Source: Gammaproteobacteria bacterium (GTDB lineage Bacteria; Pseudomonadota; Gammaproteobacteria; Chromatiales; Chromatiaceae). From it: a DNA stretch of 64,000 bases. The first letter of the stretch is position 1. Every line of letters begins with the position of its first letter. The notes beneath the pieces are model-generated. The model saw nothing but the letters and a program-made list of their open reading frames with translations. It searched no databases and was not told where the DNA came from. The stretch spans positions 62,001-126,000 of the forward strand of contig JAGRGQ010000002.1 in NCBI GenBank assembly GCA_020445405.1, given 5' to 3'. Made by a program: the position numbers and the translations under genes. Below, piece by piece: positions 34,380 to 56,208 of this stretch.

Positions 34380-35672
34380 TTAGCCGCCAAAGGCGTCTTT
34401 GGTAATGTTATTGAACCAGCTGTGAGCGTAAGCCACATCGCGTTTGAACTGCTCGGCACTGGCATCACCTGGGGTCACACCTCCAGAGACGGCGACAATC
34501 TTGGAGCCGTCCTCCGCGAGGCGGTAGACGTTGGCCACCGAGAAGGCGTAATCCTTGCCCGCGATGGAGTAGCAGGTGTTCACATACGACGGGGTGCCTG
34601 GTTCCTGACCAGCGAGCAGCGCGGCGACGGCCGCAGCACAAACCTTGGCCTGGGAGTTGGCGGCATATCCCGATTTGGGCATGCCGACGGCGTTGCTGGC
34701 GTCGCCGAGCACGTGGATACCGGCATGCATCTTCGATTCGAAGGTGGCAAGATTCACCGGGCACCAACCCTTGTCATCAGCCAGGCCGGAGGCTATGGCG
34801 ACTGAGCCCGCTGTTTGTGGCGGAATGACATTCAGTACGTCAGCCTTGATCTCGTCGCCGAATGCGGTCGTGACTGTGTTGGATCCGGCATCCACCTTCA
34901 CCACACCGGCCTCCTCCTGCTGGCCGTGCCATTCGATCATGGCTTTGTCGGTGCCGAAACCGTAGAGCTTCTTCCAGGCGCCGATGAACAGTCCCTGCTT
35001 GGAGAACTTTGGTTTCGGGTCGAGGATGATCACCTTCGATTTGGGTTTGGCCTGCTGCAGATACATCGCGATCTGGCTGGCGCGCTCGTAGGGTCCGGGG
35101 GGGCAGCGGAACGGATTCGGCGGCGCGGCGATGATCACGGTGCCGCCATCCTTCATCGCCTCCAACTGGCTGCGCAGCAGCGCCGTCTGCGGACCGGCCT
35201 TCCATGCGTGGGGAATCTTCTCCGCAACTTCGGCGCTGTAACCTTCTATTTTGCCATAGCTCAAATCGATACCCGGCGCGACGATACAACGATCGAAGCT
35301 GAAGCTCTGACCGCCGGCGGTCTTGACCATCTTGGCAGCGGCATCGATGCCGGTGACCGTGTCGTGCACCACCTTGACACCGTGCTTTGCCAGTCCATCG
35401 TAGCCAAACCTGATAGAGTCCAGGCTGCGATTGCCGCCGAGCACTTCGTTGCTCAGATAGCAGGTGTAGTACTCCTTGTTGGCTTCGATCAGCGTGACCT
35501 CGATGCTGGGGTCGGCCATACGCAGATACTTGGCCGCGGTTGCGCCGCCGGTGCCGCCGCCGACCACCACAACTTTTTTGCCGGCACCCAGCGCGATATA
35601 GGGCATGCCGGCAACACCGATCGCGGTTACCGCTCCGGCAGTCTGGATAAATCCTCTTCTGGTTATCTTCAT
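34380..35672 (-). CDS. fccB: Flavocytochrome c sulfide dehydrogenase, flavoprotein subunit
   Basis: 430 aa. A Tat signal ([10 protein letters not shown], residues 4-13) precedes the mature FAD protein. FAD site [17 protein letters not shown], the FccB-typical [21 protein letters not shown], and [19 protein letters not shown] are clear. Redox Cys are present in [13 protein letters not shown] and in the C-terminal [13 protein letters not shown]. With FccA it oxidises sulfide to sulfur in the periplasm and reduces cytochrome c. It follows fccA by 18 bp. Length and motifs match characterised FccB. Confidence 0.96.
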
Positions 35673-35690
35673 TGCAATTCGTCTCCTACC

Positions 35691-36311
35691 TTATTTCTGC
35701 TGGCTGGCGTAGTAACTGGTCAGTGCATCAAGAGCGGCATCGCCCTCTTTCGCCAACATGTCCTTTAACTTCTTGGCCATTTTCTTGGGCGCTTCGCGAA
35801 GTCCTGCATGGAAGTCCGCGAACTGATTCCGCAGATAAGGGGTCCATTGACCGGCCATGACGCCGGCATCGTCCTCGGCCGACTGTCCACCCTCGGCATG
35901 ACATTTTTCACAGTACTTGTCGTGCAGCTTGCCACCCTGTTTCACCAGTTTCGGGTCAAAATCCTGTTTGGCTTTCACGAACGGCTTGGCGACATAGAAC
36001 TTTGCCAGTTGCTTTATCTCGTCTTCGGTATAACCCTGCGCCATTCTGCCCATGACGGTGGAAGGCACGGTGCCCTCGGCATACTCCTTCATGATTTCAA
36101 CGAAGTAGTCGTTGGACAGGCCCGCGATGGTGGGGATCGCCGGGCCGCTGCTGGCACCATCGGTGCCATGGCAGCCCGCACAGGTGTTGGCCAGCATTGA
36201 ATCGCTGGCACCCATCATCGTATTGGGGGCGTCCGCGGCATAGGCCCCGGACGATGCCCCGAACGCCACACCTGCGATCAGGAAAGCCTTGGTTAAGGTT
36301 TTGTACACCAT
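35691..36311 (-). CDS. fccA: Flavocytochrome c sulfide dehydrogenase, diheme cytochrome subunit
   Basis: 206 aa with a signal peptide cut near GAYAAD. Two cytochrome c domains with heme sites CAGCH (about residue 45) and CEKCH (about residue 137), and a Met-rich first half (PSTVMGRMAQGY) offering axial Met. It takes electrons from the FccB flavin and passes them to soluble cytochrome. First gene of the pair; the 180-bp upstream gap should hold the promoter, though I see no clear box. Confidence 0.95.
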   Translation of the reverse strand: MVYKTLTKAFLIAGVAFGASSGAYAADAPNTMMGASDSMLANTCAGCHGTDGASSGPAIPTIAGLSNDYFVEIMKEYAEGTVPSTVMGRMAQGYTEDEIKQLAKFYVAKPFVKAKQDFDPKLVKQGGKLHDKYCEKCHAEGGQSAEDDAGVMAGQWTPYLRNQFADFHAGLREAPKKMAKKLKDMLAKEGDAALDALTSYYASQQK

Positions 36312-36494
36312 GATTCCTCCTATTGGATTGATGGCTTGTTACTCTCGGTAATGATTGTTGGTTTTGTTTAAACTGCGGCCGTCAGACCGCAATCAGCTAC
36401 TTCATCTGCGTGATTTTAATTGTACAAGTCTGTCTGACTGTAATAAGTGCGCCTGGCTGTAAAACCGCACCGCCGTCAGATCCCTGGTGGATTA

Positions 36495-37442
36495 CTAATG
36501 TCCGGTGCTCTCCTCCAACAGCGAAACTACCCGCTTGTTTCTGCGTTTCAGCGCTATCGCATGGGCATCACGGCCGCTTTTGTCGACCAGGGTCGGGTCA
36601 GCACCGTTTCTGAGCAGCAGGTACACCAGGTCCTCCGATCTCACCGAGGCGGCTTCCATCAGTGCCGTGATCCCGTCAGCGTCCTGCAGATTGACTTTGG
36701 CGCCGCGATATATCAGACGTTCCGCGACCGGCAGATGGTCCTGCCCCACCGCCCAGATCAGAGCGGAAGCGCCGTCCCGATCCACCGCGTTGATATCGGC
36801 GCCCGCATCGAGCAGCGCATCGATTGAATCCGCGTTTCCCTTGTCTGCGGCAATAATCAGCGCGGTGGCCCCGTTTTTGTCTCGTGCCTCGATATCGGAT
36901 CCACCCTTGATCAGTGCAGCTATCGTCTCCGGGTGACCCTTTTCCGCCGCGTGCATCAGCGCGGTACGCCCGTTATTATCCGTAGAGGCGGTGTTCGCCC
37001 CTTTAAACAGCAGCTGCTCTACCATATCCGTGAGGCCGTAGCGAGCCGCGATCATCATCGCGTCCCAGCCGGCACGGGTCTTGGCGTTCAGATCGGCGCC
37101 CCGTTCCAGCAGCAGCGCCGATAGTGCATCATGGCCGTTTTCCGCGGCGAAGGTAAGCGCGGTACACCCCTCTCTTGCTTCGGCGTTAACGTCGGCGCCA
37201 CGCGCCAGCAGCAGCGCCGTGGCCTCCAGGTTGTCGTTCTGGATAGCCATCATCAATGCGGTCACACCGAATTTGTTGGCGCTGTCGACGGGAACTCCCT
37301 CGTCAAGCAGCCGCTCAAGTGTCTCCACGTCACCGATTCCCGCGGCGACCCGAAACTCTTTCTCTTTCTCCGAGTCTCCGGCGATGGCAACGGAGACCAG
37401 TACCATACCCAACAGAAGGGCGACGAATTTATTGAACTTCAT
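36495..37442 (-). CDS. Exported ankyrin-repeat protein
   Basis: 315 aa from the ATG at 37442 (AGGTATAG upstream). A signal peptide ends near VAIAGDSE. The rest consists of about nine ankyrin repeats of 33 residues, with repeated cores such as GVTALMMAIQNDNLEATALLL and GRTALMHAAEKGHPETIAALI. It binds proteins but has no catalytic part. It follows the tetraheme cytochrome gene by 48 bp on the same strand and so may be a periplasmic chaperone or scaffold for it. Eukaryote-like repeats are frequent in symbionts, but a periplasmic ankyrin protein is also common in free-living bacteria. Confidence 0.9.
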   Translation of the reverse strand: MKFNKFVALLLGMVLVSVAIAGDSEKEKEFRVAAGIGDVETLERLLDEGVPVDSANKFGVTALMMAIQNDNLEATALLLARGADVNAEAREGCTALTFAAENGHDALSALLLERGADLNAKTRAGWDAMMIAARYGLTDMVEQLLFKGANTASTDNNGRTALMHAAEKGHPETIAALIKGGSDIEARDKNGATALIIAADKGNADSIDALLDAGADINAVDRDGASALIWAVGQDHLPVAERLIYRGAKVNLQDADGITALMEAASVRSEDLVYLLLRNGADPTLVDKSGRDAHAIALKRRNKRVVSLLEESTGH

Positions 37443-37490
37443 GGGTCTATACCTTGCTATGGGAAACAGCTGACAGCTGAACAATCCAGC

Positions 37491-38069
37491 CTATTCCTGT
37501 TTCTCCGCAACCTCTTCCTCTTCCGGTTCATCCGGCTCTTCGTGCGCAATGCCCTTGTGGCAGTCGATGCAGGTCTTGCCCTCGTCTCTGGCACTGCTGT
37601 GCCGGTTGCGCGCGCTGCGGCTCTGCTCACTCAGGTCCATATTCTCCCAGGCATGGCAGGAGCGGCATTCACGGGAGTCGGTTGCGCGCATTTTATCCCA
37701 AACCCGGTTGGCCATATCCCAGCGGTGCTTTTCGAACTTCTCCTTGGTGTCTATGGTCCCGAGAAATTCGTGCAGGACATCCTTGTACGCAAGAATCTTG
37801 GCCACCATTTTGGGACCGAAGGCTTTGGGTACGTGGCAATCGGCGCAGGTGGCCCGGACACCGGAGGTGTTTTTGTAGTGGATAGTCTGCTGCAACTCCT
37901 CCAGATTGATCTTCATGGAGTGGCAATCGGTGCAGAATTCCATGGTGTTGGTGGCCGAAAGTCCGACATTGAACAGCCCGGCAAAAACTGCGCCGGCACC
38001 AAATATGAGTATTACAATTAAGAAAAGTTTTATCCGAGATTTACCGGTGCGCTTCTGGTCACGAGCCAT
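37491..38069 (-). CDS. NapC/NirT-family membrane-anchored tetraheme cytochrome c
   Basis: 192 aa. One N-terminal membrane helix (residues about 13-35) then four heme sites: CTDCH, CADCH, CRSCH and CIDCH. Spacing and the early MEFCTDCHSM match NapC/NirT/NrfH proteins, which oxidise quinol and feed periplasmic reductases. The C-terminal tail is strongly acidic (EEPDEPEEEEVAEK), which is unusual. No periplasmic reductase (nap, nrf, tor) is adjacent; the ankyrin gene follows. Partner unknown. Confidence 0.92.
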   Translation of the reverse strand: MARDQKRTGKSRIKLFLIVILIFGAGAVFAGLFNVGLSATNTMEFCTDCHSMKINLEELQQTIHYKNTSGVRATCADCHVPKAFGPKMVAKILAYKDVLHEFLGTIDTKEKFEKHRWDMANRVWDKMRATDSRECRSCHAWENMDLSEQSRSARNRHSSARDEGKTCIDCHKGIAHEEPDEPEEEEVAEKQE

Positions 38070-38326: not shown

Positions 38327-38340
38327 CTGATCTGGATCAA
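38327..38340 (-). promoter_or_regulatory. Possible FNR/DNR-like box
   Basis: CTGAT-CTGG-ATCAA differs from TTGAT-N4-ATCAA at one position. No well-placed -10 element follows in either direction at class II distance, so it is weaker than the boxes at 44198, 48933 and 60936. Confidence 0.3.
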
Positions 38341-38605: not shown

Positions 38606-39058
38606 CTAGCTCAAACCCTTGTCGGCGAAGAACTCCCGATATTCGACGTCGATCTCGTTGATGTGGTGGTAAAGCCACTCCCACAACAGTGTACTCATTT
38701 TTCCTTTGAATTTTGCATTCCGGTTGTTTATCTGGGACTGGATCTTGGTCAAATCGTTCACGAATTTATCGTGCTGCAGCTTGTGTCCTGGATATCCCGG
38801 ATAATCGAATTTGCGCATGAACTCCTCTTCCTCGCGAAAATGTGTCGCGACGAAAAGCGTCACCCTGCTGAACAGTGCATCCACGCGCTTCCAGTCATTT
38901 GCATCGGGTTCTCTGTCTGCAAGCTCTTCCGCCAGTTGGTTAAATTCGACCGCATAGCTGGCCAGCCTCAAATGTTGTTTGTTAAACTCCGAAACCCCGA
39001 CGTTTTTCAAAAGGCAGGGGTATTTGTCCTGTGCGGAAGAACTTTTGAGTCCAAACAT
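38606..39058 (-). CDS. Single-domain bacteriohemerythrin
   Basis: 150 aa, typical length, with an AGGAGAAAA ribosome site. Ligand motifs: NKQHLRL, ATHFREEEEFM, GHKLQHDKF and HHINEIDVEYREFF. The last motif HxxxxD supplies the bridging Asp. N-terminal CLLKNVGVSEFN replaces the usual W-based start. Cytoplasmic O2- or NO-binding protein. It sits beside the respiratory island, consistent with handling NO or low O2, which is inference. Confidence 0.9.
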   Translation of the reverse strand: MFGLKSSSAQDKYPCLLKNVGVSEFNKQHLRLASYAVEFNQLAEELADREPDANDWKRVDALFSRVTLFVATHFREEEEFMRKFDYPGYPGHKLQHDKFVNDLTKIQSQINNRNAKFKGKMSTLLWEWLYHHINEIDVEYREFFADKGLS

Positions 39059-39408: not shown

Positions 39409-39738
39409 ATGTTGCGCATGTATAACGGCCTTCCAATTTTACTGGGGATACTCCTCATCACGCTCCTGGCGCCAGCGGCACGTGCCGAGACCGCCGGTTC
39501 GTCGGAACCATTGCCGGATCACGGCTATACGGCTTCGTCACTGAGCCCGATATCAACAGCAACGGATTCAGAAACAGGGGCGGCCGGTGCTGCAGCACAA
39601 GCATCCGGCAAGAGTCCGGGTCACAGCGGGTCCGGCGACGGCCGAACCGGTTTCTGGGTCGTCGGCATGCTTGTTAACCTGGCAGTCCTGGCATGGTTTT
39701 TGGCATGGGCGGTCAAAGAGTGGCGCAGGAAGAGGTGA
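39409..39738 (+). CDS. Small exported or membrane protein, unknown
   Basis: 109 aa. An N-terminal signal sequence (ILLGILLITLLAPAARAE) and a C-terminal membrane helix (FWVVGMLVNLAVLAWFLAWAVKEW) flank a Ser/Thr/Gly/Ala-rich low-complexity linker. The final KEWRRKR should face the cytoplasm. No ribosome site is strong. It is the first of three small rightward genes leading to the oxidase-like clusters, so an accessory role in respiratory complex assembly is possible but unproven. Confidence 0.6.
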   Translation: MLRMYNGLPILLGILLITLLAPAARAETAGSSEPLPDHGYTASSLSPISTATDSETGAAGAAAQASGKSPGHSGSGDGRTGFWVVGMLVNLAVLAWFLAWAVKEWRRKR

Positions 39739-39825
39739 GAACCGGGAACGTTGTTGACGAGGTAATTCAACAGCTGTAGCTTTACTACTGTTTTCCCGGC
39801 ATGCGTTCTTACTTGTTGAGGCAAG

Positions 39826-40263
39826 ATGGATATCACCTCGTATTTGCCCCCGTTACAGGCGGCACTGAACTCCATTTCCGCTTGTTTGATAGTCGCTGCA
39901 TACGGGTTTATTCGCAGAGGTAACAAACGGGCACATAAAGTCTGCATGGTATCAGCACTGCTGGTTTCTACGCTTTTCCTTGCTGCTTACCTTTACTACC
40001 ACAATCAAGTCGGTTATGTGCCGTTTACCGGTCAGGGGCTTATTCGCCCGATCTACTTTACGATTCTGTTTTCACATATATTTTTGGCGGTTGTAATACT
40101 GCCGATGATAGTTTTGACCGTTATCTTTGCACTCAGGGAGAGGATTACGCTGCATCAACGGATGACCCGCTGGACATTACCGCTATGGCTCTATGTTTCC
40201 GTGACCGGTGTGCTCATTTACCTGTTCGGATTCCATCTCTATCCTCCCCAGGCGGCAGCCTGA
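39826..40263 (+). CDS. DUF420-family membrane protein
   Basis: 145 aa with four membrane segments. Matches DUF420: LPPLQAALNSISACLI, the RRGNKRAHKVCMVSALLVS segment with conserved His, FTILFSHIFLAVVILPMI and RITLHQRMTRWTLPLWLYVSVTGV. DUF420 proteins, including CtaM, are linked with heme-copper oxidase assembly or activity. Here it lies next to two heme-copper subunit I genes, matching that link. Confidence 0.85.
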   Translation: MDITSYLPPLQAALNSISACLIVAAYGFIRRGNKRAHKVCMVSALLVSTLFLAAYLYYHNQVGYVPFTGQGLIRPIYFTILFSHIFLAVVILPMIVLTVIFALRERITLHQRMTRWTLPLWLYVSVTGVLIYLFGFHLYPPQAAA

Positions 40264-40605: not shown

Positions 40606-41997
40606 TCAATTCCGTTTCGCCGGCCACATGGCTTTGAAGACAACGACGAGAAAAATCACACCGCCTGTAATGGCTATCAGTCCTCCCAGTCCCATCAATC
40701 CCATGCTGACTATTTTTTCGATGCTTTCCAATCCCTGGGCGCTTCCCGCGGTTTTCCGCTGTACGCCGTACCCGCCAGACCAGGCCAGGCCGAATACATG
40801 CATCATCTGGCCGATTCCATAAACAGCCGGCTGATAACGCGCCAGTCTGCCGGATGGCTTACGAAATCCGATGCGCGGCAGTATGTGGTAAATGACGCCC
40901 ATGAATGCCAGGGTGACTGCAACGATCGATCCATGATAGTGAGCCGGTATCGTGACGTTGCTGCCGCGTATCATGAAACCGATGACACCGCCGACGCCAA
41001 ACAGCAGAATCGAAAAAAGTAACGCTGAACGTTGCGCACGGAGATGATCGTCGGAAACCGGTCGGGATCCGAAAAATGCCGGGGCCAACGCCAGTGCCAG
41101 CGGTAGTGCGGCGATGCCACCGCCATACTGCATCAGCCAGGTGAGCCAGAGTATATGCTGACCTGAAACGACTGTGAACGCAGCGTAGACGTAGATCGTC
41201 ATCAGTGCGGGTATTGCACCCAAAGCAAACAGCAGCAGCGCGATTCTCGGGTGAAGTCTGACGCGCAGTCCGGATACGGTGGCCAGCCACAACCAGCCAA
41301 CCAGCATCAACTGGACATGCGTGAACTGTATCGTGTGACCGCCGCCCCAGAACAGCAATTCGTAGTAGTGCTGTCCCTGGATATTCTCCGGAATGCCCAG
41401 GTAAGAGGCCACCAGGGCAGCGACTGAGACCAATGCGATTACCAGTCCAATCAGCAGTCCGAAGCGAAGTGCTCCAGCGCCACTGATGCGCGTTCCCATC
41501 GGTCTGGAATAAAACAGCCCTCGGAGTACCAACAGCGTGAAGCCGAGGCCGAATATGCCCAGTCCGGTAAAAAAAATCGGATCCTGCAGTACTGGTACAT
41601 AATTGTTCATTAACGGGCCGCCTGCGCCCAGAAAGGGCGACAGGCTGATAATCACGGTGCCCAAAGCCGCGAGCCCAAACGCCGCCCAGCCGCATTGGGA
41701 ACAGTTTTCCCTGCTGTTCAGCGTCCAGAGAATTCCGGCGCAGGAGAGAAACCAGACCAGCACCGTGAGGTCCACGTGAACCACCAGGGCAGTGTGGAAA
41801 AAATCTATCCAGGGAAATATCTCCTGTATCCCGGGAGTTCGCGACATGACGATCAATACGGTAAACACGCCGCCCACAACCAGCGATCCAAGCGCCAGCG
41901 ACAACCAACCGAGCGCGAGTCGTCGTGATGCTGTTTCCGGAGGATCAAGGTCAAATCCGTCGATTAGCTGATTGTGTATTGAATGGTCAGTGTTCAT
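40606..41997 (-). CDS. Heme-copper oxidase subunit I homologue without active-site Tyr (cluster A)
   Basis: 463 aa, about 12 membrane helices. The likely low-spin heme His are H74 (HVDLTVLVW, NorB-like in look) and H355; H353 (PAHYHG) should bind the high-spin heme. The distal-metal site starts with H221 in GGGHTIQF; the residue four on, where oxygen reductases have the cross-linked Tyr, is Phe225. The usual HH pair reads SGQHILW (Gln280, His281). This is not a normal O2 reductase site. It is the last gene of a leftward operon with a 167-aa unknown and a cytochrome b / Fe-S / MvhD fusion, and lacks a CuA subunit. NO reduction with quinol- or ferredoxin-derived electrons is my inference; a divergent cbb3/NOR relative is the safe statement. 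Confidence 0.8.
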   Translation of the reverse strand: MNTDHSIHNQLIDGFDLDPPETASRRLALGWLSLALGSLVVGGVFTVLIVMSRTPGIQEIFPWIDFFHTALVVHVDLTVLVWFLSCAGILWTLNSRENCSQCGWAAFGLAALGTVIISLSPFLGAGGPLMNNYVPVLQDPIFFTGLGIFGLGFTLLVLRGLFYSRPMGTRISGAGALRFGLLIGLVIALVSVAALVASYLGIPENIQGQHYYELLFWGGGHTIQFTHVQLMLVGWLWLATVSGLRVRLHPRIALLLFALGAIPALMTIYVYAAFTVVSGQHILWLTWLMQYGGGIAALPLALALAPAFFGSRPVSDDHLRAQRSALLFSILLFGVGGVIGFMIRGSNVTIPAHYHGSIVAVTLAFMGVIYHILPRIGFRKPSGRLARYQPAVYGIGQMMHVFGLAWSGGYGVQRKTAGSAQGLESIEKIVSMGLMGLGGLIAITGGVIFLVVVFKAMWPAKRN

Positions 41998-42058
41998 GGT
42001 GGTTACAAATATTCTTGGAGATGGTTCAGCGCCCGAGATTTGCAGTGGCGGCGGAACC

Positions 42059-42562
42059 CTATCTGATCACGAATTGGTTCTGGCCGCTGTTGAACTGAAT
42101 AACAAGCAGCTGTGCGGATTCGAGCGACACCGATTTCCGGTAATGATGTGTTGCCCCCTTGACGCGGATATTGTCGTTCATGCGAATTTCAATCTCGTGA
42201 TCACCGGTAGGAACCTTAACGCTTTTGTATATATCCACTCCCTGGTCCTTGTACAGGCCGGGCGGATCAACAACATCGTCGATGACAGGATTCTTATCCA
42301 TTAAAACTTCAATTTTAACAGGTGATCTTTCACGTGGACAATCTTCCAGTACACGCATATTCGGTGGCAATTTGGCCAGCTCTTCCTGGCTTTTCCTGTG
42401 GCATTCCTGTACCGGCTTGCCGGCATGGGAGAGAGCCAGAGTGATCATAGACTCTTCCGGCGTCAGGCGTACGTATTGCGGGCTGAAGGAGAAGTACCAG
42501 ACCAGGCCCATGAACAAGGTATAGTTCACAAGCTGCAGAATCAACCGCTTCGCGCTAGGCAT
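42059..42562 (-). CDS. Membrane-anchored protein of unknown function in cluster A
   Basis: 167 aa. One N-terminal membrane helix (LQLVNYTLFMGLVWYFSF), then an extracytoplasmic part with two Cys (QECHRK and EDCPRE) that could form a disulfide and a beta-rich end (TGDHEIEIRMNDN, SAQLLVIQFNSGQNQFVIR). It overlaps the cytochrome b fusion gene by 8 bp and precedes the heme-copper subunit by 61 bp, so it is almost surely a subunit or assembly factor of that complex. It has no heme site and is not a recognisable CuA or NorC subunit. Confidence 0.75.
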   Translation of the reverse strand: MPSAKRLILQLVNYTLFMGLVWYFSFSPQYVRLTPEESMITLALSHAGKPVQECHRKSQEELAKLPPNMRVLEDCPRERSPVKIEVLMDKNPVIDDVVDPPGLYKDQGVDIYKSVKVPTGDHEIEIRMNDNIRVKGATHHYRKSVSLESAQLLVIQFNSGQNQFVIR

Positions 42563-44111
42563 TGCCGTCCTCCCCGGAAGCGGAATTCACTGGCGCATTT
42601 TGCAGAGCGGCAATCCGGATGGAAAACCCGGCGAGTTCATTTTTTATCTGCCTGCCATCTGTTACCGCAGCCCGGAAAACGTGGATGCGTGAGCGGTCGA
42701 CCCGTTCCCTGAGCATCGGCTTTCGACCCTCGTTAAACCGTTTATCCATCCAGACATTGCCGTACCGATAGTAACAGTCCCCGTTTCTGCAACCGGTGAT
42801 AAACACGCCGTCCGCTCCATTTTTCAGCGCGTACTCCACCAGCGTGGGCGGTACCATACCGGTGCATAGAAAACTCATTGCCGCTATGTTGCGGCTTTTC
42901 AATTCAGCCGCATCGAATGCATGATCACATCCGAAAACGATCAGTCGGGTTTCACCCGTCAACGCGTCCAGGGCGGCCTTAGTTCGACTTCGCACCTCAT
43001 CGATCGGAAACTGCGGCATGTCGATACCGGTTTCGAGTACTTTCCCGCTGGAACGAAAAGGATTGGATGAGTGGCAGGAGCCAACGCAGATACCGCAGGC
43101 GGCACAGAGCTTCTCGTTCACCGCCACTTCATATTCCCAACGGGCACCATCGGTTCGGGTCTGCACGCTGATCGCGTCGAACGGACAGTCGACGGCACAT
43201 TGTCCGCAGCCATTGCATTCGTCGAGATGGACTTCGGCTGCCGTACCGGTCTTTTTCGGAGGTAACCAGGGCATGATCATAAGCAGACCCGTGATTCCCG
43301 TGGTTATTATCCAGGTCTGTCCGGCGGTTAAATAGTCGAGAGCGGGATATATGTTCAGGTAGAACCAATCAAGATTAAGTACCGCAGGTACTTTATGCAG
43401 GTCGGCCGGCGCATGACTGACGGCAGGCCAGATAAAAGAGAGGGCGAGCAGGGCGATAAAGCTTCCGATTGCAAGCCCTCTGGGGGCACTGATTTCAACA
43501 TGCGAAAGTCGCTTGACATGGATCCAGAGCGCGAATATCAGCAGCACCGGCTGCCCCAGCAGGTGCAGAAAAGCCATCAAAGTGAAGAAACGGTCGGTAA
43601 GTTGCCCCTCCAGAAAGTTGCTGGCCATTGATCCCGCGACAATGGGAAGTGCGTCCATGAGCTGGGATGACAAAACTGCAACGTACAGACCCAGTTCATC
43701 CCAGACCAGCCAGTAGCCGGTAATGCCCAATGTGATGACAAACCAAAGCGTCGGGACCCCGGTGAGCCAGGAGAACCAGCGAAAGCCGCGGTAGCGGTCA
43801 AGCGCGAACTCCCTGAACATGTGCAGTACGATCGTCATGACCGCAGCGTCCGATGCGTAGCGGTGCAGACTGCGCATGACACCACCGAAGTACCACTGAT
43901 CGTGGGTTAAGTACTGGACCGAATTGTAGGCACCGGTGAGACTGGTATCGAAAAACACGAACAGGTAGATGCCGCTGATCAGCACAACCCAGAAAAAGAA
44001 GAAAGTCAGCGTGCCCAGGTGATAGAGCGGATTCCATTCCGCTCCAAAAGAGATGTTGAACCATGCTTCAAGCGCCAGATAGCCTCTCTTTATTGGATTG
44101 ACGGATTTCAA
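42555..44111 (-). CDS. Cytochrome b6 / 2x[4Fe-4S] / MvhD-domain fusion protein (cluster A)
   Basis: 518 aa in three parts. Residues 1-285: a cytochrome b with heme pairs H83/H97 (13 residues between) and H183/H198 (14 between, as in b6). Residues 295-350: two [4Fe-4S] motifs, ECNGCGQCAVDCP and CAACGICVGSC. Residues 385-490: an MvhD/FrhD-like domain with Cys at 395, 416 (LCTGMV), 441 and 446 (GCRNGDC). MvhD domains pass electrons to or from heterodisulfide-reductase-type flavoproteins; cytochrome b exchanges electrons with quinol. The protein could thus link quinone, an Fe-S carrier and the heme-copper subunit encoded downstream. No hdrA gene is near. First gene of cluster A. An FNR-type box lies upstream. 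Confidence 0.88.
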   Translation of the reverse strand: MKSVNPIKRGYLALEAWFNISFGAEWNPLYHLGTLTFFFFWVVLISGIYLFVFFDTSLTGAYNSVQYLTHDQWYFGGVMRSLHRYASDAAVMTIVLHMFREFALDRYRGFRWFSWLTGVPTLWFVITLGITGYWLVWDELGLYVAVLSSQLMDALPIVAGSMASNFLEGQLTDRFFTLMAFLHLLGQPVLLIFALWIHVKRLSHVEISAPRGLAIGSFIALLALSFIWPAVSHAPADLHKVPAVLNLDWFYLNIYPALDYLTAGQTWIITTGITGLLMIMPWLPPKKTGTAAEVHLDECNGCGQCAVDCPFDAISVQTRTDGARWEYEVAVNEKLCAACGICVGSCHSSNPFRSSGKVLETGIDMPQFPIDEVRSRTKAALDALTGETRLIVFGCDHAFDAAELKSRNIAAMSFLCTGMVPPTLVEYALKNGADGVFITGCRNGDCYYRYGNVWMDKRFNEGRKPMLRERVDRSRIHVFRAAVTDGRQIKNELAGFSIRIAALQNAPVNSASGEDGNA

Positions 44112-44306: not shown

Positions 44307-45155
44307 TTACCGCTGCATATGCCTGTCTCTATCCAGGCGGCTTCGTTTCAGCAGCTCCAGCAGCACGAAAAGCAGCCCGGAGAGGATAATAAAGGCACCG
44401 ATTGTCAATCCTATAAAAAGAGAATAATCGAATTGATAACCGTCTCTGCTTGGGTCGTAGGCAGTGCAGAAGAAGCGAACCTTGTTGACCAGTTCATCGA
44501 GAAATGTCTGCCCCGGCTTCGGGCGGTCAAGTACCAGGTCCTTTAATGGCTCCACCAGCAGCGGGGTTTCGAAAACCTCTCCGTACACCTGCGTATAGAG
44601 AACGCCTTCGGCGTCGATAACGCTGGCCTGGACGATGTGGTCGAAGCCGTTGGGCGAAGTAAAGAACTGGAAGCCAAGCTGTTTCGTAAGTGCGTTAACT
44701 GTGTCGCTGTCCGCGCTCAATAAATGAAATGCCGCGTTCTCGATCCCCTGTTTCCTGGCGTAGGAGAGCATCGCCTGAGGCGTGTCGTGCTGGGCGTCGA
44801 AACCGAGTATTGCCACGGAAAAGCTGTCGCCTCCCAGCGCCGTGCGCGCTTTTTCGACCACCTTGTGCAGGTTTCTGGTAGTCATGGGGCAGATGTGGTA
44901 GCAACTGGTGTAGACGAGGCTCAGTACCAGCGGTTTGCCTCTGAAATCCGAAAATTTCACTGATCGGCCGTGCTGATCAGTCAGGATATAGTCGCCGAGG
45001 GCACGGCCTATTGCGGACTGGCTCGATTGTAAAGCCGTTTTATACTGAAAGTTTTTTACCGAACCCGCTCCACCCGTCTCACTTTCATCACCGGAGACGA
45101 ATTGGGGGAGGGCGGCAGACAGTGCCAACAAGAGAAGCGCTACAAGATGGCGCAT
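44307..45155 (-). CDS. SCO1/SenC-family protein with C-terminal membrane helix
   Basis: 282 aa from the ATG at 45155; the reading frame is open much further up, but that portion overlaps ctaB in another frame and is noise. A signal peptide (HLVALLLLALSAALPQFVSG) is followed by the thioredoxin-like fold with copper site TSCYHICP and the later His in NGFDHIVQAS. A C-terminal helix (LFIGLTIGAFIILSGLLFVLLELL) is an unusual addition. SCO proteins deliver copper to the CuA centre. It lies 42 bp downstream of ctaB, serving the cluster B oxidase-type complex. Confidence 0.88.
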   Translation of the reverse strand: MRHLVALLLLALSAALPQFVSGDESETGGAGSVKNFQYKTALQSSQSAIGRALGDYILTDQHGRSVKFSDFRGKPLVLSLVYTSCYHICPMTTRNLHKVVEKARTALGGDSFSVAILGFDAQHDTPQAMLSYARKQGIENAAFHLLSADSDTVNALTKQLGFQFFTSPNGFDHIVQASVIDAEGVLYTQVYGEVFETPLLVEPLKDLVLDRPKPGQTFLDELVNKVRFFCTAYDPSRDGYQFDYSLFIGLTIGAFIILSGLLFVLLELLKRSRLDRDRHMQR

Positions 45156-45196: not shown

Positions 45197-46054
45197 TCAG
45201 CCGATCAGCATGGTATCCAAAACCGCAAAAACCAACAATAGGATCAATTGAATCAACGAAGCGAAAAAGCTGCTCATCGCCATTTTCGGGGATGGATCCA
45301 TGACCAGTTGCATATTGCGCAGCAGAAAAAAGCCGCCCCCCGCTACAGCTCCCAGCAGGTAGACCCAGCCCAGCCCGAAGAAAAACGGAAGTATGGAGAT
45401 GGTTACCAGCAGTGCAGTATTGCCCAGTACCGCTTTTGCCGCAGCCTGGTTGCCAACCACCACAGGCAACATCGGTACACCCGCGGACGCATAGGCGCCC
45501 TTCTGTGCGATAGCGAGGCTCCAGAAATGGGAAGGGGTCCAGAGGAACAGCACGATCGCGAGTAAAATCGGGACGGCGCCTATCTGGGGGTCGACCACCG
45601 CGGCGCCCGCCAGCACTGCAAAACTTCCGGATGCTCCACCGATGACGATGTTGAGCCAGGTGCGGCGTTTCAGCCAGACAGTATAGACAATGGCATAAAA
45701 GAACGCACCGAGGAAAATATGGAGCGCGGCCATTCCGTTGAGTGCAAATCCGGCAATGCCGACACCGACCAGTAAAAGGGACGATATGACCAGCAACCAC
45801 CAGCGATTATGCGGCAGTTCGCCGGTAACGAAAGGGCGGTTCCTGGTGCGTGGCATGGTCGCATCGAGATCGCGTTCATAGTACTGATTGAACGCACCTG
45901 CACTGCTGGCCGCCAGTAATACCGCGAGTGTCAATAACAGCGCCTGCCAGGCTGGTACCGGCTGACCGGGTGTCACCACCAGCGCCACCAGTGCGGTAAT
46001 CGACATGATGACGCCGATTCGCAATTTAAACAGGTTGATTAGCAGCTTAACCAT
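45197..46054 (-). CDS. ctaB: Protoheme IX farnesyltransferase
   Basis: 285 aa, UbiA-type with eight or nine helices. Signatures: NQYYERDLDATMPRTRNRPFVTGEL (given in part, the polyprenyl-diphosphate and Mg site) and LFLWTPSHFWSLAIAQKGAYASAGVPMLPVV in part. It converts heme B to heme O, the first step to heme A. Together with ctaA at 50176 it indicates that the adjacent complex uses heme O or A. Transcribed leftward behind the cluster B subunit genes, with 141 bp between containing a large inverted repeat. Confidence 0.95.
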   Translation of the reverse strand: MVKLLINLFKLRIGVIMSITALVALVVTPGQPVPAWQALLLTLAVLLAASSAGAFNQYYERDLDATMPRTRNRPFVTGELPHNRWWLLVISSLLLVGVGIAGFALNGMAALHIFLGAFFYAIVYTVWLKRRTWLNIVIGGASGSFAVLAGAAVVDPQIGAVPILLAIVLFLWTPSHFWSLAIAQKGAYASAGVPMLPVVVGNQAAAKAVLGNTALLVTISILPFFFGLGWVYLLGAVAGGGFFLLRNMQLVMDPSPKMAMSSFFASLIQLILLLVFAVLDTMLIG

Positions 46055-46195: not shown

Positions 46196-47929
46196 TTAGC
46201 TAAGCGGCCATACCGATGCCAGATACTTCCAGTTGATGAAGTAGTACACGATAAAGCTTACCAGAAGTACCATAGCGAGAACAAAGGTACCGGGTGCTTC
46301 GAAACTGCTGGATCCATGCCCTTCCACCGGCAGCGGGGCGGCTCTGGGGAGAGTTTCCGGGCGCTGGTTGGAATAACACGATGCGGCCAATGGCAACCCA
46401 AAGCTCTGCAGCAGTCCTGCGGAGGGTTCGAGTTTTTTGCCGAACACCAGAGAGCCGACGGTTATCAGCAGGAAAGCACCACCGCCGAGCACACCGATAA
46501 CGCCGCCGAAAGCGCCTATACCCATCAGCGTGTAGGCCATGCCCGGATAGTCGAAGCCGAGAGCCGCGCCGGTGAAGTCCATGTCCCAGTGTCGTCTTGA
46601 AACGCCCAGGGTTCCCGCGCCCAGCATGAACAGCACCATGATGGTCATCCCGCCGCCAAACAGGTAGGGTTGAATCTTAGCCAGTCCTGGAAGAATCATC
46701 TGGCGCCGGAACAGCACCGGAATCAGAAAGTAGGTCACACCCATGAAGGCCATAGTGGTGCCTACTGCAACTGTGGCATGAAAATGAGCCGGCACATAGA
46801 TGGTGTTATGGATGATCAGATTGATCTGTTCGGTACCCATGACCACGCCGGTAATGCCGCCCAGGAATCCGAAGACCACCAGGGAGATGAACATCGAAGA
46901 GAACACCGGGTTCTCCCAGGGCGCTTTGCGCAGCCACTCGAACAGGCCGTTGTTGAAGCCCTTTCCGCGCTGCGCCACCTCGATCGAACCGGGAACGGTG
47001 AGGCCGTGGATCAAGCTGGCCAGCACCGCCAGGTACATCGCATAACTGGTGTTGAACACTTTCCATTCCGAACTGATGCCCGGGTCCACCAGAATGTGGT
47101 GGGCGCAGGCCAGTTGCAGGAAAAGGATGTAAAGCAGGTAGGCGGTGCGGCTTACCTTCTCCGACATCGGGCGGGCGCCAAAAACCAGACCGGCGATCAG
47201 GTACCAGATGGCGACATGCGCCGCAACGTTGATCTGCTGTGACGAGTGCCCCAGACCCCACCAGACGACCCGGTACATCTCGGCGTCGATGTGGGCAATA
47301 TACCCAATCGACCAGAGAAAGGTGGGTATCAGGATTATTGCCCCCGATGCGATGGTAAACACCGCGATGATGGCGGCCGTCACCGCGCCGAATGTCACCA
47401 GCGGAATCGAACCGTCGTAGGTCTTCTCCTGTTTGGCCACAACCAGCGTGCCGAAAAAGATAAAGCAGCCGATCAGAGCGCCCACCGCGAACAGGATAAG
47501 CCCGAGATAAAAATGGGGGGCTGCCTGCATCGGCACATAGGATGTCATCATGACGCTGGAGCTGCCCTGAAAAATCGCCACGTTGGTCATTACCGCACCG
47601 ATCAGCATCAGCAGAAACTGCACCCAGCCCCACGCGGGTGTCGCCAGCCTGCAGCGCAACAGCGTCGATGATGCGACGTAGAGAACAGCCATTTCGAAAA
47701 AGATGATCCAGAAGATCAGTGCATCTATGCCATGTGCGGTCAACGCCATGTAAAACTGGTCAGCCGGCAGCAGATGGACCGCCTGCCAGCGGGTGAGAAC
47801 GACCAGCAGCGCAAGAATGCCGGCAACCAGAAGCGCTACCGCGGCCGCGACTGCGTTCGCCTTGATCAGGCTCTCGGCGGATTTGTGAAAATAGAGCCCG
47901 GTATCTGGGCAAGTTCTGAACTGTGCCAT
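46196..47929 (-). CDS. Heme-copper oxidase subunit I with Tyr-to-Gln active site, NO-reductase-like (cluster B)
   Basis: 577 aa, about 13-14 helices. All metal-binding His are there: H66 (TAHGIDALIFW), H228 in GLGHSSQQ, H277/H278 in CAHHIL, H382 and H384 in VPAHFHATV. The residue four after H228, the cross-linked Tyr of oxygen reductases, is Gln232. Without that Tyr the O-O bond chemistry of an oxidase is not expected; some NO-reductase families in this superfamily lack it too. It forms an operon with a CuA subunit II and small subunits under an FNR-type promoter, beside ctaB and SCO. I infer a CuA-containing, heme O/A NO reductase (eNOR-like). An unusual oxidase remains the alternative. Confidence 0.85.
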   Translation of the reverse strand: MAQFRTCPDTGLYFHKSAESLIKANAVAAAVALLVAGILALLVVLTRWQAVHLLPADQFYMALTAHGIDALIFWIIFFEMAVLYVASSTLLRCRLATPAWGWVQFLLMLIGAVMTNVAIFQGSSSVMMTSYVPMQAAPHFYLGLILFAVGALIGCFIFFGTLVVAKQEKTYDGSIPLVTFGAVTAAIIAVFTIASGAIILIPTFLWSIGYIAHIDAEMYRVVWWGLGHSSQQINVAAHVAIWYLIAGLVFGARPMSEKVSRTAYLLYILFLQLACAHHILVDPGISSEWKVFNTSYAMYLAVLASLIHGLTVPGSIEVAQRGKGFNNGLFEWLRKAPWENPVFSSMFISLVVFGFLGGITGVVMGTEQINLIIHNTIYVPAHFHATVAVGTTMAFMGVTYFLIPVLFRRQMILPGLAKIQPYLFGGGMTIMVLFMLGAGTLGVSRRHWDMDFTGAALGFDYPGMAYTLMGIGAFGGVIGVLGGGAFLLITVGSLVFGKKLEPSAGLLQSFGLPLAASCYSNQRPETLPRAAPLPVEGHGSSSFEAPGTFVLAMVLLVSFIVYYFINWKYLASVWPLS

Positions 47930-47936: not shown

Positions 47937-48473
47937 TTACTCCTTCACGTAGATCTTGCCGACCATCGTGTGGTGGCCGATACCGCAATATTCGTTGCAG
48001 ACCACCCCATATTCACCAGCTTGGTCGGGGGTAACCGTCAGGACCATTTCGTAACCGGGTACGACCTGCATGTTGATATTGATTGGCTGAACGGAAAAGC
48101 CGTGCTGCCAGTCCATCGAAGAGAGGTGCAGCCTGTAGGTCTTGTTTTTCTCCAGTTCGAGAATCGGCCACCACTGCCACAGGCGGGCCAGCATGTAGAC
48201 GTCACTGCCTGCCGGTGGATGGATAATCGGCAGTCCGGCCTCTTCACCCACTTTGTTCTGATCTATCCCTTCCTGTACCTTGGCGCCAAATTTTGCCGGA
48301 GTTGTCTGGTAGGCTTCATTTGAGAGGTTCTGTTTTCCATAAATGTGCCAGTAGGGCATCATGAAAAACATAATGAGACACCAGGTCAGCGCGATCAGTA
48401 TCCAGACGATCTCCTGGCGGCCAACGGGTACTTTCCACCAAAATCGGTCGGCCGGCGGCATAAATGAAGTCAT
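47937..48473 (-). CDS. Heme-copper complex subunit II with CuA site (cluster B)
   Basis: 178 aa. One N-terminal membrane helix (IVWILIALTWCLIMFFMMPYW) then the cupredoxin domain. CuA ligands are complete: H124 (DWQHGFS), C159, C163, H167 and M170 in CNEYCGIGHHTM. The single-helix anchor is the B-type (ba3) layout rather than the two-helix aa3 type. It would take electrons from cytochrome c or a copper protein and pass them to subunit I, 7 bp downstream. Start at 48473 is next to a weak purine stretch. Confidence 0.92.
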   Translation of the reverse strand: MTSFMPPADRFWWKVPVGRQEIVWILIALTWCLIMFFMMPYWHIYGKQNLSNEAYQTTPAKFGAKVQEGIDQNKVGEEAGLPIIHPPAGSDVYMLARLWQWWPILELEKNKTYRLHLSSMDWQHGFSVQPININMQVVPGYEMVLTVTPDQAGEYGVVCNEYCGIGHHTMVGKIYVKE

Positions 48474-48558: not shown

Positions 48559-48729
48559 TCAAGGCGCAACGGGGATCGTGACAATCTCCATGATGCCCCA
48601 GACGATATAAAATACCGCGGGCATCGCAACACCGAGAAAAAGAAGCAAAAAAGGATTGTCGAGTAGCGACTGCATGGCAGGAATATGCTCTTCCTGATTT
48701 TCGTCTGGTGACTTGCTTGTTTCCGTCAT
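48559..48729 (-). CDS. Small single-helix membrane subunit (subunit IIa-like)
   Basis: 56 aa from the ATG at 48729 (AAGGGG upstream); a longer frame to 48759 lacks a ribosome site. Hydrophilic start (TETSKSPDENQEEHIPAM) then one membrane helix (PFLLLFLGVAMPAVFYIVWGI in part). The place and shape match the small CbaD/IIa-type subunit of B-type heme-copper enzymes, although sequence identity cannot be judged by eye. It lies between the miniprotein and subunit II. Confidence 0.7.
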   Translation of the reverse strand: MTETSKSPDENQEEHIPAMQSLLDNPFLLLFLGVAMPAVFYIVWGIMEIVTIPVAP

Positions 48730-48905: not shown

Positions 48906-48946
48906 ACTATATTCGCTGAATTTGCGCCAGCATTGATCTACATCAA
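48906..48946 (-). promoter_or_regulatory. Class II FNR/DNR promoter of cluster B
   Basis: TTGAT-CTAC-ATCAA (48933-48946) is a perfect FNR/ANR/DNR consensus palindrome. On the leftward strand TATAGT (48911-48906) begins 28.5 bp from its centre, fitting an activator bound at about -41. Predicted start is near 48899, 20 bp before the 33-aa miniprotein. Activation under low O2 or NO is the expected outcome. Confidence 0.85.
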
Positions 48947-49956: not shown

Positions 49957-50175
49957 TGCGGTGCATCCCGCCGTGCCAGGTCTTTCTGAACATCAGCTTG
50001 CAGGACGCTGTGCCGGGGATGTTCGCGGTGTCTGCGACTGCACCTGCTTCTGGCGGGAACAGTTCTCATCCGGCACCTGAATTCCGGCATACCGATTGAG
50101 ATGACGGGTGTAATTCCGCAAAATACGCAATCACAAACCGGGTGTCCGGCTTCGACACTGTCTGCAGGAAATAAT

Positions 50176-51210
50176 ATGGTGGAGATGAATTCCCGAAGAT
50201 CGATTGCGATATGGCTTTTGGTCTGCTGTGCGGCGATCTACGTGATGGTTGTCCTGGGCGGCGTTACCCGTTTGACCGGGTCCGGTCTCTCAATGGTTAA
50301 ATGGGAGCCGGTGATCGGTGTATTCCCGCCAATGAGTCAATCAGAGTGGGAAGAGGTATTTCTGCTCTATCAGCAGTATCCCGAGTTCAAATTGAAGAAT
50401 TCTCATATGGATATCGGGGATTTCAAAAGTATTTTCTGGCTGGAGTATTTTCACCGTCTTCTGGGACGCTTGATCGGAGTTGTTTTTTTACTGCCGCTGG
50501 TCTATTTCCTGATCACCAGAAAAATCCAGAAATCCATGGTTCCAAAACTCGCGTTCATATTCCTGCTCGGTGGTCTGCAGGGATTGCTCGGCTGGTACAT
50601 GGTGAAAAGCGGACTTGCGCAGGATCCGCATGTAAGCCAATACCGGTTAACCGCCCATCTTGGGTTCGCGTTTATCATTTACGCGTTTATTTTCTGGACT
50701 GCACTTGACCTGCTTTTTGTCCGGGAACGACAGGCGGTCTTTCAAAGCCACTCCGGCCTCAGCCGATTTTCATTTTTCGTTACCGGTTGCATATTTATTA
50801 CCATTCTTTCCGGCGGTTTCGTTGCCGGCCTGAAAGCCGGGCTGGCTTACAATACGTTTCCATTGATGAACGGTCAGCTTATTCCTGATGGATTATCGAC
50901 CATGGATCCGCAATGGAAAAACTTTTTTGAAAATGTCACGACGGTACAATTCGATCACCGGCTGCTGGCGACCTGTCTTGTCGTTCTGGTGCCGATATAC
51001 TGGTTCTACGCGCAGCAGAAGCAGCTCACATCCGGAACCAGGATAGCCTCTCATCTGCTCCTGATCGTTCTGCTGGTGCAGGTTGCGCTTGGCATCTCCA
51101 CATTGCTGCTCCATGTGCCGGTCTCACTGGCTGCCACCCATCAGGGAGGGGCGCTGGCGCTGTTTACACTGGCGCTGTATCTGAGCCACCGGTTGCGATA
51201 CCGGCAGTGA
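50176..51210 (+). CDS. ctaA: Heme A synthase (COX15/CtaA)
   Basis: 344 aa from the ATG at 50176, which has AGGAA 7 bp upstream; the frame is open to 50101 but the extra residues are not family-like. Eight helices. Conserved heme-binding and catalytic regions: VVLGGVTRLTGSGLSMVKWEP, EYFHRLLGRLIG, RLTAHLGFAF, FDHRLLA and ATHQGGAL, so all four His are there. It oxidises the heme O methyl to a formyl, giving heme A. Its presence near cluster B suggests that the complex carries heme A, although another oxidase elsewhere could be the client. Confidence 0.95.
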   Translation: MVEMNSRRSIAIWLLVCCAAIYVMVVLGGVTRLTGSGLSMVKWEPVIGVFPPMSQSEWEEVFLLYQQYPEFKLKNSHMDIGDFKSIFWLEYFHRLLGRLIGVVFLLPLVYFLITRKIQKSMVPKLAFIFLLGGLQGLLGWYMVKSGLAQDPHVSQYRLTAHLGFAFIIYAFIFWTALDLLFVRERQAVFQSHSGLSRFSFFVTGCIFITILSGGFVAGLKAGLAYNTFPLMNGQLIPDGLSTMDPQWKNFFENVTTVQFDHRLLATCLVVLVPIYWFYAQQKQLTSGTRIASHLLLIVLLVQVALGISTLLLHVPVSLAATHQGGALALFTLALYLSHRLRYRQ

Positions 51211-54572: not shown

Positions 54573-56156
54573 TCAGTGGCTGGTGCCGCTTGAGCGGGTA
54601 AGTTTGTTATGTGCATTATATTTTCCCGAAGGCTTTTTCATAGGCAGGCGCTTCACTTCTTTGAGTGTATCGGCATCGTAAACGACCAATGCACCGTCGT
54701 CGTCCCAGACACTGACCAGTGCGTATCTGCCGTCTTTGGTGAACTCCACGTGGGCGGAGGTTTTACCGGGCGCCGGGTTCAGGGTTTCGACGATTTCCAG
54801 CGTCTGTTTATCTATCACATGCATCAGATCCCTGTTCGGCCCGAAAAAGACATCGACCCAGGCGTAGCGGCTGCGCTCATGGCTGCGCATGAAAAATCCC
54901 GGGCCCTTGGTCGGTATGCGCTTGATCACCTCCCAGTTTTTCATGTCGACAACAGTCACCTCCGGTTTTTTGATATTGGGTGTGGCCAGCACCGTACGGC
55001 CCTGGTACTGCCATGTGATGGCGGAGCTGAGATGCGGCATACCGGGGAGGGCGATTGTGGCGACCGACCTTTTCAGGTCCAGATCCACGACCTGGCCGGC
55101 AGCGCCCTGCTCGTCGGGCCCGCCGCGCGAGGTGCCGATCACGCGATCGTACTCCTGCGTAAGAAAAAAGTCGTCCAGGTATCCCTTTATCCCAATGCGC
55201 GATATAGGGAACCGGCGGTTTTTGTCTGCATCCCCCGAATCTTCACGATAATCGTGCACCCAGCCGGCGAAGCCGGCGGGTGGGTCATCTGCATAGTTGA
55301 TCTCCCACACCTCTGGTATGTCCTTCAACGCGACCACGAAGCTGTCGCGCGCGTCCGCGGTGTAGACGGCACTGACCCGGGAGCTGTGCCCTTTGCCATC
55401 CTTCACCTCGATAACCTTGATCGGGCGAAGGTCCGTCGCATCCAGCAGCGTCAGCGTATGAGGAAGATAATTGGCCACCAACAGGAACCGGCCATCATGC
55501 GACACCGCCAGGTTGCGTGTGTTGATACCGGCTCGAACCTCGGCGACGTAGGTGAGATTGAAGACGTCGAATTTACTGATCCAGCCATCGCGCGAGGCAA
55601 AATAGATGTAGCGCCCATTGTCGGCCCATTTGGGACCGCCATGCAGCGCAAACCGCGTTGCAAATCTATGAATGGGTTCGAAAGTATCTCCATTGAGCAG
55701 CGTGGCGTGGTGGTCTCCCAGTTCCACTACGACAAAGAGATTGTCGATATCGGCGTCAAACAGAGGCTTGTCGGGCAACTCTCCCGGTTTATGGTAGACC
55801 TGCAGGCTGCCCAGGATCTCCGCCATTCCCCAGGCTGGCACGGATTTCAGCGGAGTGTAGATCAACTCGACCAGCGATTCGATCTGTGGCCCAGTCAGAA
55901 TATCCTTGAATGGCGGCATCTGACTCGCTGGACGGCTGTTCGCTATGACCGAAATGGCCGCTTCTTTACGCAGGCGCTGGAGGTTCTGAGGCAATAGCGC
56001 GGGGCCGACGGCGCCAAGACGGTTTGCGCTGTGGCATTCTGCGCAGTACTGGGCATAGAGCGCAGATGCTTCGGGCGCAGCGATGCTGTCGGCAGCGGCG
56101 ATGCTCAGACAGAAAATAGAGGCCAGGAGGCAGCATCGGCAACGGCTTTGGATCAT
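54573..56156 (-). CDS. nirN: NirN-type cytochrome c / d1-domain protein
   Basis: 527 aa. Signal peptide, then a class I cytochrome c domain with heme site CAECH (residues 38-42) and Met in ASQMPPFKDIL, then an eight-bladed d1 propeller (GDHHATLLNGDTFEP; GLG-type repeats; MRSHERSRYAWVD; SAHVEFTKDGRYA). In NirS two distal His guard the d1 iron; the segment where the first is expected reads IGTSRGGPDEQG and no such His is seen. With its place at the end of nirCFDLGHJ this supports NirN, the dihydro-d1 dehydrogenase of d1 synthesis, over the nitrite reductase. Confidence 0.85.
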   Translation of the reverse strand: MIQSRCRCCLLASIFCLSIAAADSIAAPEASALYAQYCAECHSANRLGAVGPALLPQNLQRLRKEAAISVIANSRPASQMPPFKDILTGPQIESLVELIYTPLKSVPAWGMAEILGSLQVYHKPGELPDKPLFDADIDNLFVVVELGDHHATLLNGDTFEPIHRFATRFALHGGPKWADNGRYIYFASRDGWISKFDVFNLTYVAEVRAGINTRNLAVSHDGRFLLVANYLPHTLTLLDATDLRPIKVIEVKDGKGHSSRVSAVYTADARDSFVVALKDIPEVWEINYADDPPAGFAGWVHDYREDSGDADKNRRFPISRIGIKGYLDDFFLTQEYDRVIGTSRGGPDEQGAAGQVVDLDLKRSVATIALPGMPHLSSAITWQYQGRTVLATPNIKKPEVTVVDMKNWEVIKRIPTKGPGFFMRSHERSRYAWVDVFFGPNRDLMHVIDKQTLEIVETLNPAPGKTSAHVEFTKDGRYALVSVWDDDGALVVYDADTLKEVKRLPMKKPSGKYNAHNKLTRSSGTSH

Positions 56157-56208
56157 GCTAAACCGGGATGGGCTATGTTGAAGGGATTGGGTTTCGTCAC
56201 GCAGCCTT

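Follow-up and report, generated by a model that had tools for sequence, protein, structure and literature searches.

The reduction of nitric oxide (NO) is the step that makes nitrous oxide (N2O), and NO reductases (NORs) of the eNOR type are often misannotated as oxidases. A Gln at the position of the cross-linked Tyr is the mark of eNOR, which has been reported in Proteobacteria (PMC8756737), and the enzymes named sNOR and bNOR carry Asn at that position (PMC8756737; PMC3475470). An open reading frame with cytochrome b6, DMSOR-beta Fe-S, and FlpD domains (RME88945.1) has also been tabulated, without comment, in that literature (PMC8756737). Here we describe an operon in a stretch of 64,000 nucleotides (the window; positions 62,001 to 126,000 of contig JAGRGQ010000002.1, assembly GCA_020445405.1) from a gammaproteobacterium of the family Chromatiaceae. 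Three of its genes, at 40606-44111 and here called A, B, and C, had been described in an earlier, sequence-only reading as one operon for a quinol- and Fe-S-linked terminal reductase, possibly for NO, in which C was the heme-copper subunit.

The three genes do form a contiguous unit (8-bp overlap between A and B, 61-bp gap between B and C), but this unit is only the tail of a larger operon on the same (minus) strand, which is widespread and is built around genes for a CuA-type NOR. Directly upstream lie a subunit II with a CuA site (47937-48473), subunit I, ctaB, and sco, where the earlier reading had seen neither a CuA nor a cytochrome c subunit. On balance, we lean toward regarding the operon as encoding a B-family CuA-type NOR of the Tyr-to-Gln (eNOR) type that is equipped with a dedicated cytochrome-b electron-input subunit, protein A. 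In minus-strand order the operon comprises an FNR/DNR box, a small peptide, subunit II, subunit I, ctaB, sco, A, B, and C. The intergenic distances are 7 bases from subunit II to subunit I, 141 from subunit I to ctaB, 41 from ctaB to sco, 195 from sco to A, -8 from A to B, and 61 from B to C. The features are as follows:

48933-48946, no strand: FNR/DNR-type box TTGATCTACATCAA, an exact match, upstream of the operon
48559-48729, minus: small peptide of 56 amino acids with one transmembrane helix, conserved in the window and in 8/8 loci inspected; a probable extra NOR subunit
47937-48473, minus: subunit II with the complete CuA motif (Pfam COX2, NCBIfam CoxB)
46196-47929, minus: eNOR-like subunit I of the B family, with three CuB His and Gln232 at the Tyr position
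45197-46054, minus: ctaB (heme O synthase), from the cyoE annotation in a syntenic Defluviimonas cluster and the conserved gene order
44307-45155, minus, start at 45155: sco (copper chaperone for CuA), from the SCO family annotation in the syntenic Defluviimonas cluster
42555-44111, minus: A, cytochrome b with two [4Fe-4S] sites and MvhD, from profile matches and ligand conservation
42059-42562, minus: B, one transmembrane helix and a periplasmic beta-sandwich with two conserved Cys; follows A in most loci
40606-41997, minus: C, a CuB-less paralogue of heme-copper subunit I, from a COX1-family match, alignment, and trees
50101-51210, plus: ctaA (heme A synthase), a probable maturation gene; NCBIfam model match of 8.5e-97, below the model's own cut-off; adjoins C in many loci
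54573-60543, minus: heme d1/nir cluster (NirN, NirJ, four NirDLGH/Ahb proteins, NirF), given as context

The reductase subunits and the conservation of the operon

Subunit I keeps all three CuB histidines, and Gln232 takes the place of the cross-linked Tyr of O2 reductases; this Gln is invariant in the 9 aligned rows, which include sequences of Thermus and Thermomicrobium. The best profile matches of subunit I are ba3-type (B-family) oxidases. In trees, in which the Thermus and Thermomicrobium relatives stood in place of labeled eNOR references, subunit I grouped with these same-motif relatives, apart from the Tyr-bearing oxidases. The eNOR-like group joined the B family with support of 100/99 in a tree of 36 rows, and the deep order around the outgroups was less clear in a tree of 30 rows. 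A Thermus plasmid carries the gene for such a relative in the vicinity of one for a nitrite reductase. The label eNOR-like is given to subunit I on the basis of the Gln residue, the B-family placement, and the gene context. The subunit II gene adjoins that of subunit I, and its CuA motif, C-x3-C-x3-H-x2-M, is complete. The eNOR-like subunit I, and not C, is almost certainly the catalytic subunit of the operon.

A genome scan returned at least 400 relatives of A, and the best 80 were taken for locus comparison; these came from Gammaproteobacteria, Magnetococcales, Alphaproteobacteria, a metagenome-assembled genome of Rhodocyclaceae, and Thioalkalivibrio denitrificans. Genes for subunit II, subunit I, (ctaB), and sco precede A in 41 of the 52 other loci that extend at least 4.6 kb upstream, and in one locus (L099) the eNOR genes are divergent from A. 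B follows A in 70/74 loci, and C lies directly downstream of A-B in only 22/64; a Defluviimonas plasmid carries an eNOR-A-B cluster without C. Among 369 gammaproteobacterial genomes, 34 carried A and 34 carried the eNOR-like subunit, with 33 carrying both (Fisher p 8e-45), and cytochrome d1 proteins were found in 31/34 genomes with A versus 43/335 others (p 2e-21); as the genomes and loci share ancestry, the p-values for co-occurrence and for regulatory boxes are indicative only. Synteny and co-occurrence thus mark A as the partner dedicated to the eNOR-like enzyme. The fixed partners of A are eNOR-like subunit I and B, and the pairing with C, which is optional, is secondary; co-conservation of the genes, which the sequence-only reading required, is upheld.

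A probe of 37 genomes containing A with a cNOR query left 23, the window genome included, without detectable cNOR or qNOR. In 31/42 loci, versus 102/1620 random windows, the 400 bp that precede subunit II contained an FNR/DNR box with no more than one mismatch. One-mismatch FNR/DNR-like boxes are also present at 38327-38340, upstream of a NapC/NirT-type gene, and at 60936-60949, upstream of nirF; the total of 4 such boxes in the whole window is within chance (mean 2.07). Taken together, the co-occurrence with cytochrome d1, the frequent lack of cNOR and qNOR, and the FNR/DNR boxes make it most likely that the operon serves to reduce NO.

The window genome (98% complete) fits this assignment in its gene content. 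The heme d1/nir cluster is found upstream of the operon and shares its strand; ctaA and a further sco separate the two, and nosZ is present on contig C256. The cNOR query matched only a cbb3 subunit in this genome, at 25% identity, with no cNOR or qNOR found. Besides the eNOR-like subunit and C, a COX1 search returned cbb3 and a fragment of aa3 that lies where a contig ends. The eNOR-like enzyme is therefore the only recognizable NO reductase of the window genome. The link to NO reduction that the sequence-only reading had drawn was thus upheld by the adjacent nir/heme d1 cluster, nosZ, the FNR/DNR box, and the co-occurrence with cytochrome d1.

Oxygen has to be weighed as a substrate as well. 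The eNOR-like enzyme might be mainly a high-affinity O2 reductase, with the operon serving microaerobic respiration, given that subunit I is placed in the B family and that sNOR of Nitrosomonas europaea, a B-family relative in which the Tyr is altered, has been argued to act as an oxidase (PMC6967387). We consider this quite improbable here, as the cross-linked Tyr is missing, the nir cluster is adjacent, cytochrome d1 accompanies A in nearly all genomes, and 23/37 genomes with A lack cNOR and qNOR. The case for oxygen as the main substrate is weaker in this operon than that for NO.

A 738-amino-acid protein with two ethylbenzene-dehydrogenase-type heme-binding (EB_dh) repeats (61782-63998, minus) adjoins the nir cluster, and its relatives are found near nir genes at other loci. 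A row of genes at 34380-38069 (minus) encodes a flavoprotein similar to sulfide:quinone reductase/flavocytochrome c, a cytochrome c4-like protein, an ankyrin-repeat protein, and a NapC/NirT-type cytochrome, which suggests that the host is a sulfur-oxidizing denitrifier.

Protein A and the proposed route of electrons

The composition of A is as the sequence-only reading had given it: a cytochrome b/b6 part (Pfam E 7e-19) of 4+2 transmembrane helices is followed by two [4Fe-4S] sites and then by an FlpD/MvhD domain (E 5e-18). The heme histidines H83, H97, H183, and H198, which make two His pairs for two b hemes, are conserved in 111/111 aligned sequences, and so are the four MvhD cysteines of a [2Fe-2S] cluster (C395, C416, C441, and C446). 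Seven of the eight [4Fe-4S] cysteines are likewise found in 111/111 sequences, and Cys299 in 110/111. From the helix count and the positive residues, the Fe-S part of A is predicted to be cytoplasmic. The anchored protein that had been noted beside A corresponds to B; it has one transmembrane helix, and a search of families gave no match. A structure search showed the transmembrane helix and a beta-sandwich, with no PDB match below E 0.001. A hemerythrin-domain protein is encoded at 38606-39058 (minus); it is conserved near several clusters, and in Defluviimonas one follows B directly.

We propose that catalysis takes place in subunit I (46196-47929), where 2 NO + 2 e- + 2 H+ would give N2O + H2O, and that electrons would enter the reductase via CuA of subunit II. 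Provided that the proteins form a complex, A, anchored together with B, would act as a transmembrane conduit, in which electrons would pass from the cytoplasmic MvhD [2Fe-2S] cluster through the two [4Fe-4S] clusters to heme bH, then to heme bL near the periplasmic face, and finally to CuA. The transfer from heme bL to CuA could be direct or could proceed via quinone or a small carrier. A cytoplasmic Fe-S or flavin donor would thereby feed NO respiration through A, and NAD(P)H might be the donor in some genomes, where the same cytochrome b bears an FNR or diflavin reductase. Relatives of A fused to reductases were found in three loci:

L210, 3637-5619, minus: cytochrome b-[2Fe-2S]-FAD-NAD reductase, flanked by sco and B within an eNOR operon in which A and C are present as well; its domains were read by similarity to the L144 relative
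L144, 3583-5571, minus: relative of the L210 fusion, whose domains were scanned
L142, 2672-5212, minus: cytochrome b-flavodoxin-FAD-NADPH-type reductase, encoded downstream of eNOR-A-B-C

Reductase domains of the [2Fe-2S]-FAD-NAD and flavodoxin-FAD-NADPH kinds are normally inputs of reductant, and for this reason electron flow from the cytoplasm to the membrane is favored. Orphan genes for A, without B or eNOR, also occur. One (L090, 8586-11509) lies beside genes for a cytochrome c7-type multiheme protein and Na+-NQR-like proteins, a setting that fits a transmembrane conduit, and others (L094, L097, and L103; 8.2-11.5 kb) lie beside a gene for a cNMP-binding/rhodanese protein.

Several observations speak against the proposed input role of A or against NO as the substrate. 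Five Magnetococcales loci (L093, L096, L098, L100, and L102) have A and B with no eNOR genes on the stretch examined, and a donor to MvhD is not encoded next to A in the window genome. The oxidase role proposed for the related sNOR of Nitrosomonas (PMC6967387) also counts here. Finally, A has Asp-Trp-Phe at the position equivalent to PEWY, in the periplasmic loop after helix 5 (Asp248-Trp249 in 111/111 sequences, Phe250 in 106/111). This motif makes a quinol linkage of A possible and hints at quinol chemistry, which would allow electrons to flow in the opposite direction.

On this basis, A may be read as a quinol oxidase module, in which a Qo-like periplasmic site would oxidize quinol and pass electrons to CuA, and in which the b hemes and the Fe-S/MvhD part would either hand the second electron on to an acceptor in the cytoplasm (bifurcation) or sense redox state. 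In addition to the conserved Asp-Trp-Phe, the homology of A to quinol-oxidizing cytochrome b6 is in its favor. No Rieske gene was recognized in the window operon or in the annotated Defluviimonas cluster, however, and the fusion of the same cytochrome b to NAD(P)H reductases reads more easily as cytoplasmic input. Quinol oxidation, with or without bifurcation, is a serious rival to the input model, even if we regard quinol oxidation as the less likely of the two and, taken by itself, as unlikely.

The partner of the MvhD domain was also sought. The operon encodes no HdrA, hydrogenase, or formate dehydrogenase partner, and an HdrA-like flavoprotein, which the earlier reading had suggested looking for, is not encoded next to A; the HdrA-like genes of the window genome are confined to contig C22 and have an MvhD of their own. 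A role of A as a hydrogenase or Hdr component was rejected, since no partner is nearby and the HdrA-MvhD/HdrC/HdrB cluster on the other contig looks Qmo-like. That cluster (locus L189, 3926-9232) consists of genes for an HdrA-like protein, HdrA+MvhD, HdrC, and HdrB; apart from A, it holds the sole MvhD domain detected in the window genome.

Protein C

C is a COX1-family protein (44 bits). Its AlphaFold model (pLDDT 82.5) matches structures of heme-copper subunit I with a TM-score of about 0.7, and a profile comparison (hhalign) with the eNOR-like family gave a probability of 99.8; phmmer and profile searches of C against PDB sequences gave no match, nor did a search of plasmids. The Phe that had been noted at the cross-linked Tyr position is present as Phe225, and this position holds Phe in 64/67 relatives (I, Y, and L once each), with no NOR-type Glu, Gln, Asn, or Asp. 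All 67 relatives keep the three heme histidines, together with His221 and Gln224. The columns of the helix-VII CuB His-His pair hold I/V/L/A/F and mostly Tyr, never His (67/67; hhalign agrees), and therefore two of the three CuB ligands have been lost. The Gln-His pair that was earlier taken to replace His-His sits in a loop after the helix-VII positions, where relatives have SH, PH, YR, GE, or ES; as these loop residues are not conserved, a role of QH as variant CuB ligands was ruled out. Going by these residues, C is a paralogue of the reductase that has no CuB site but retains the ligands for both hemes.

In two trees, C was the sister of the eNOR-like Tyr-to-Gln clade (support 100/98 and 99/98, with UFBoot at 99-100%); its branch is long (1.75 to 2.5), and its exact placement needs caution. 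A position inside an O2-reducing clade was rejected, with grouping with the B-family oxidases at an approximately unbiased (AU) test p of 0.008, which upholds the sequence-only reading on this point. C occurred in 46 of the 369 gammaproteobacterial genomes, 29 of which also have A. In the 17 genomes that have C without A, C is often found beside aa3 operons, next to ctaA/ctaB/sco. Cytochrome d1 was present in 9/17 genomes with C and without A or eNOR, versus 33/317 genomes without A, eNOR, and C (p 4e-5).

These data bear on what C may do. The model of the sequence-only reading, in which C would be a quinol- and Fe-S-linked terminal NO reductase fed by A, draws on the retained ligands of both hemes, the sister relationship to the NOR clade, and the position of C downstream of A-B in about a third of the loci. 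It is highly improbable in view of the loss of two CuB ligands in 67/67 sequences, of A-B-eNOR clusters without C, and of C beside aa3 operons without A; C was rejected as the terminal reductase on the loss of CuB ligands and the optional occurrence, and the eNOR-like subunit I upstream is the far better candidate. Our best guess is that C is probably an accessory protein, with heme delivery or assembly, NO binding, and electron transfer as candidate roles. It could tentatively be seen as a factor that evolved from a NOR subunit and that assists the assembly of, or supplies heme to, NORs and oxidases of the heme-A type, as it adjoins ctaA/ctaB/sco whether the neighboring enzyme is aa3 or eNOR, and as its copper site was lost and its heme sites were retained. 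The tracking of cytochrome d1 by C in genomes without A or eNOR, however, hints that C is tied to NO and not just to heme A.

A wider proposal is that in many Proteobacteria eNOR would use a transmembrane cytochrome b with an interchangeable cytoplasmic module (Fe-S/MvhD, NADH-FNR, or NADPH-diflavin), through which cytoplasmic reductant would feed NO respiration directly and bypass bc1, cytochrome c, and the pool of quinones, and that C would found a class of heme-copper-fold proteins without CuB, with a new function that needs heme only, for example the binding of NO or the transfer of heme; taken as a whole, this is rather doubtful.

Convergent with C, genes at 39409-40263 (plus) encode a 109-amino-acid protein with two transmembrane helices and a DUF420 protein; DUF420 genes are found near many related clusters.

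Significance and comparison with known systems

The operon points to an undescribed electron feed into NO respiration. In many denitrifying Proteobacteria, including sulfur oxidizers, eNOR is apparently the sole recognizable NO reductase, and it may have a dedicated cytochrome b linked to cytoplasmic Fe-S/flavin domains. If this is true, the bioenergetic accounting of NO respiration would change, with an electrogenic path from the cytoplasmic face and possibly without quinone or cytochrome c, and A plus B would become a marker of this NO reductase for genome surveys. The CuB-less subunit I family may serve as a natural experiment on the heme-copper fold without copper.

In a literature search that covered descriptions other than the operon figures of the main eNOR paper, which might show A and B, no account of A or C was found beyond the tabulated RME88945.1; to this extent, the cytochrome b/Fe-S/MvhD partner is undescribed, as the sequence-only reading had supposed. 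RME88945.1, compared by its table entry alone, has the domain architecture of A plus an extra cytochrome c domain.

With eNOR, the operon shares Gln at the Tyr position, the full set of CuB His, a CuA subunit II, and the B-family placement (PMC8756737). It differs in that A, B, and often C are added, whereas the eNOR descriptions compared, which do not include the operon figures of the main biochemical paper, give subunits I and II only. The sNOR/bNOR enzymes (CuANOR) are likewise B-family enzymes with a CuA subunit and a Sco neighbor, but have Asn at the Tyr position where Gln is found here (PMC8756737, PMC3475470). A has in common with b cytochromes of the cytochrome b6/ExtP type the four-helix diheme core and the invariant His pairs, but adds two transmembrane helices and a cytoplasmic 2x[4Fe-4S]+MvhD part, is without a Rieske partner, and has xDWF instead of PEWY. 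As in MvhD, HdrA2-MvhD, and QmoB, the MvhD domain with its four-Cys set follows a two-cluster ferredoxin; A, however, is without the flavin HdrA part, has no hydrogenase or HdrABC adjacent, and is anchored on a cytochrome b. Finally, C has the fold of the catalytic heme-copper subunit I of oxidases, cNOR, and qNOR, together with the low-spin and high-spin heme His and one CuB His, but is without two CuB His, the Tyr, and the NOR Glu, and it is the least precedented part of the system.

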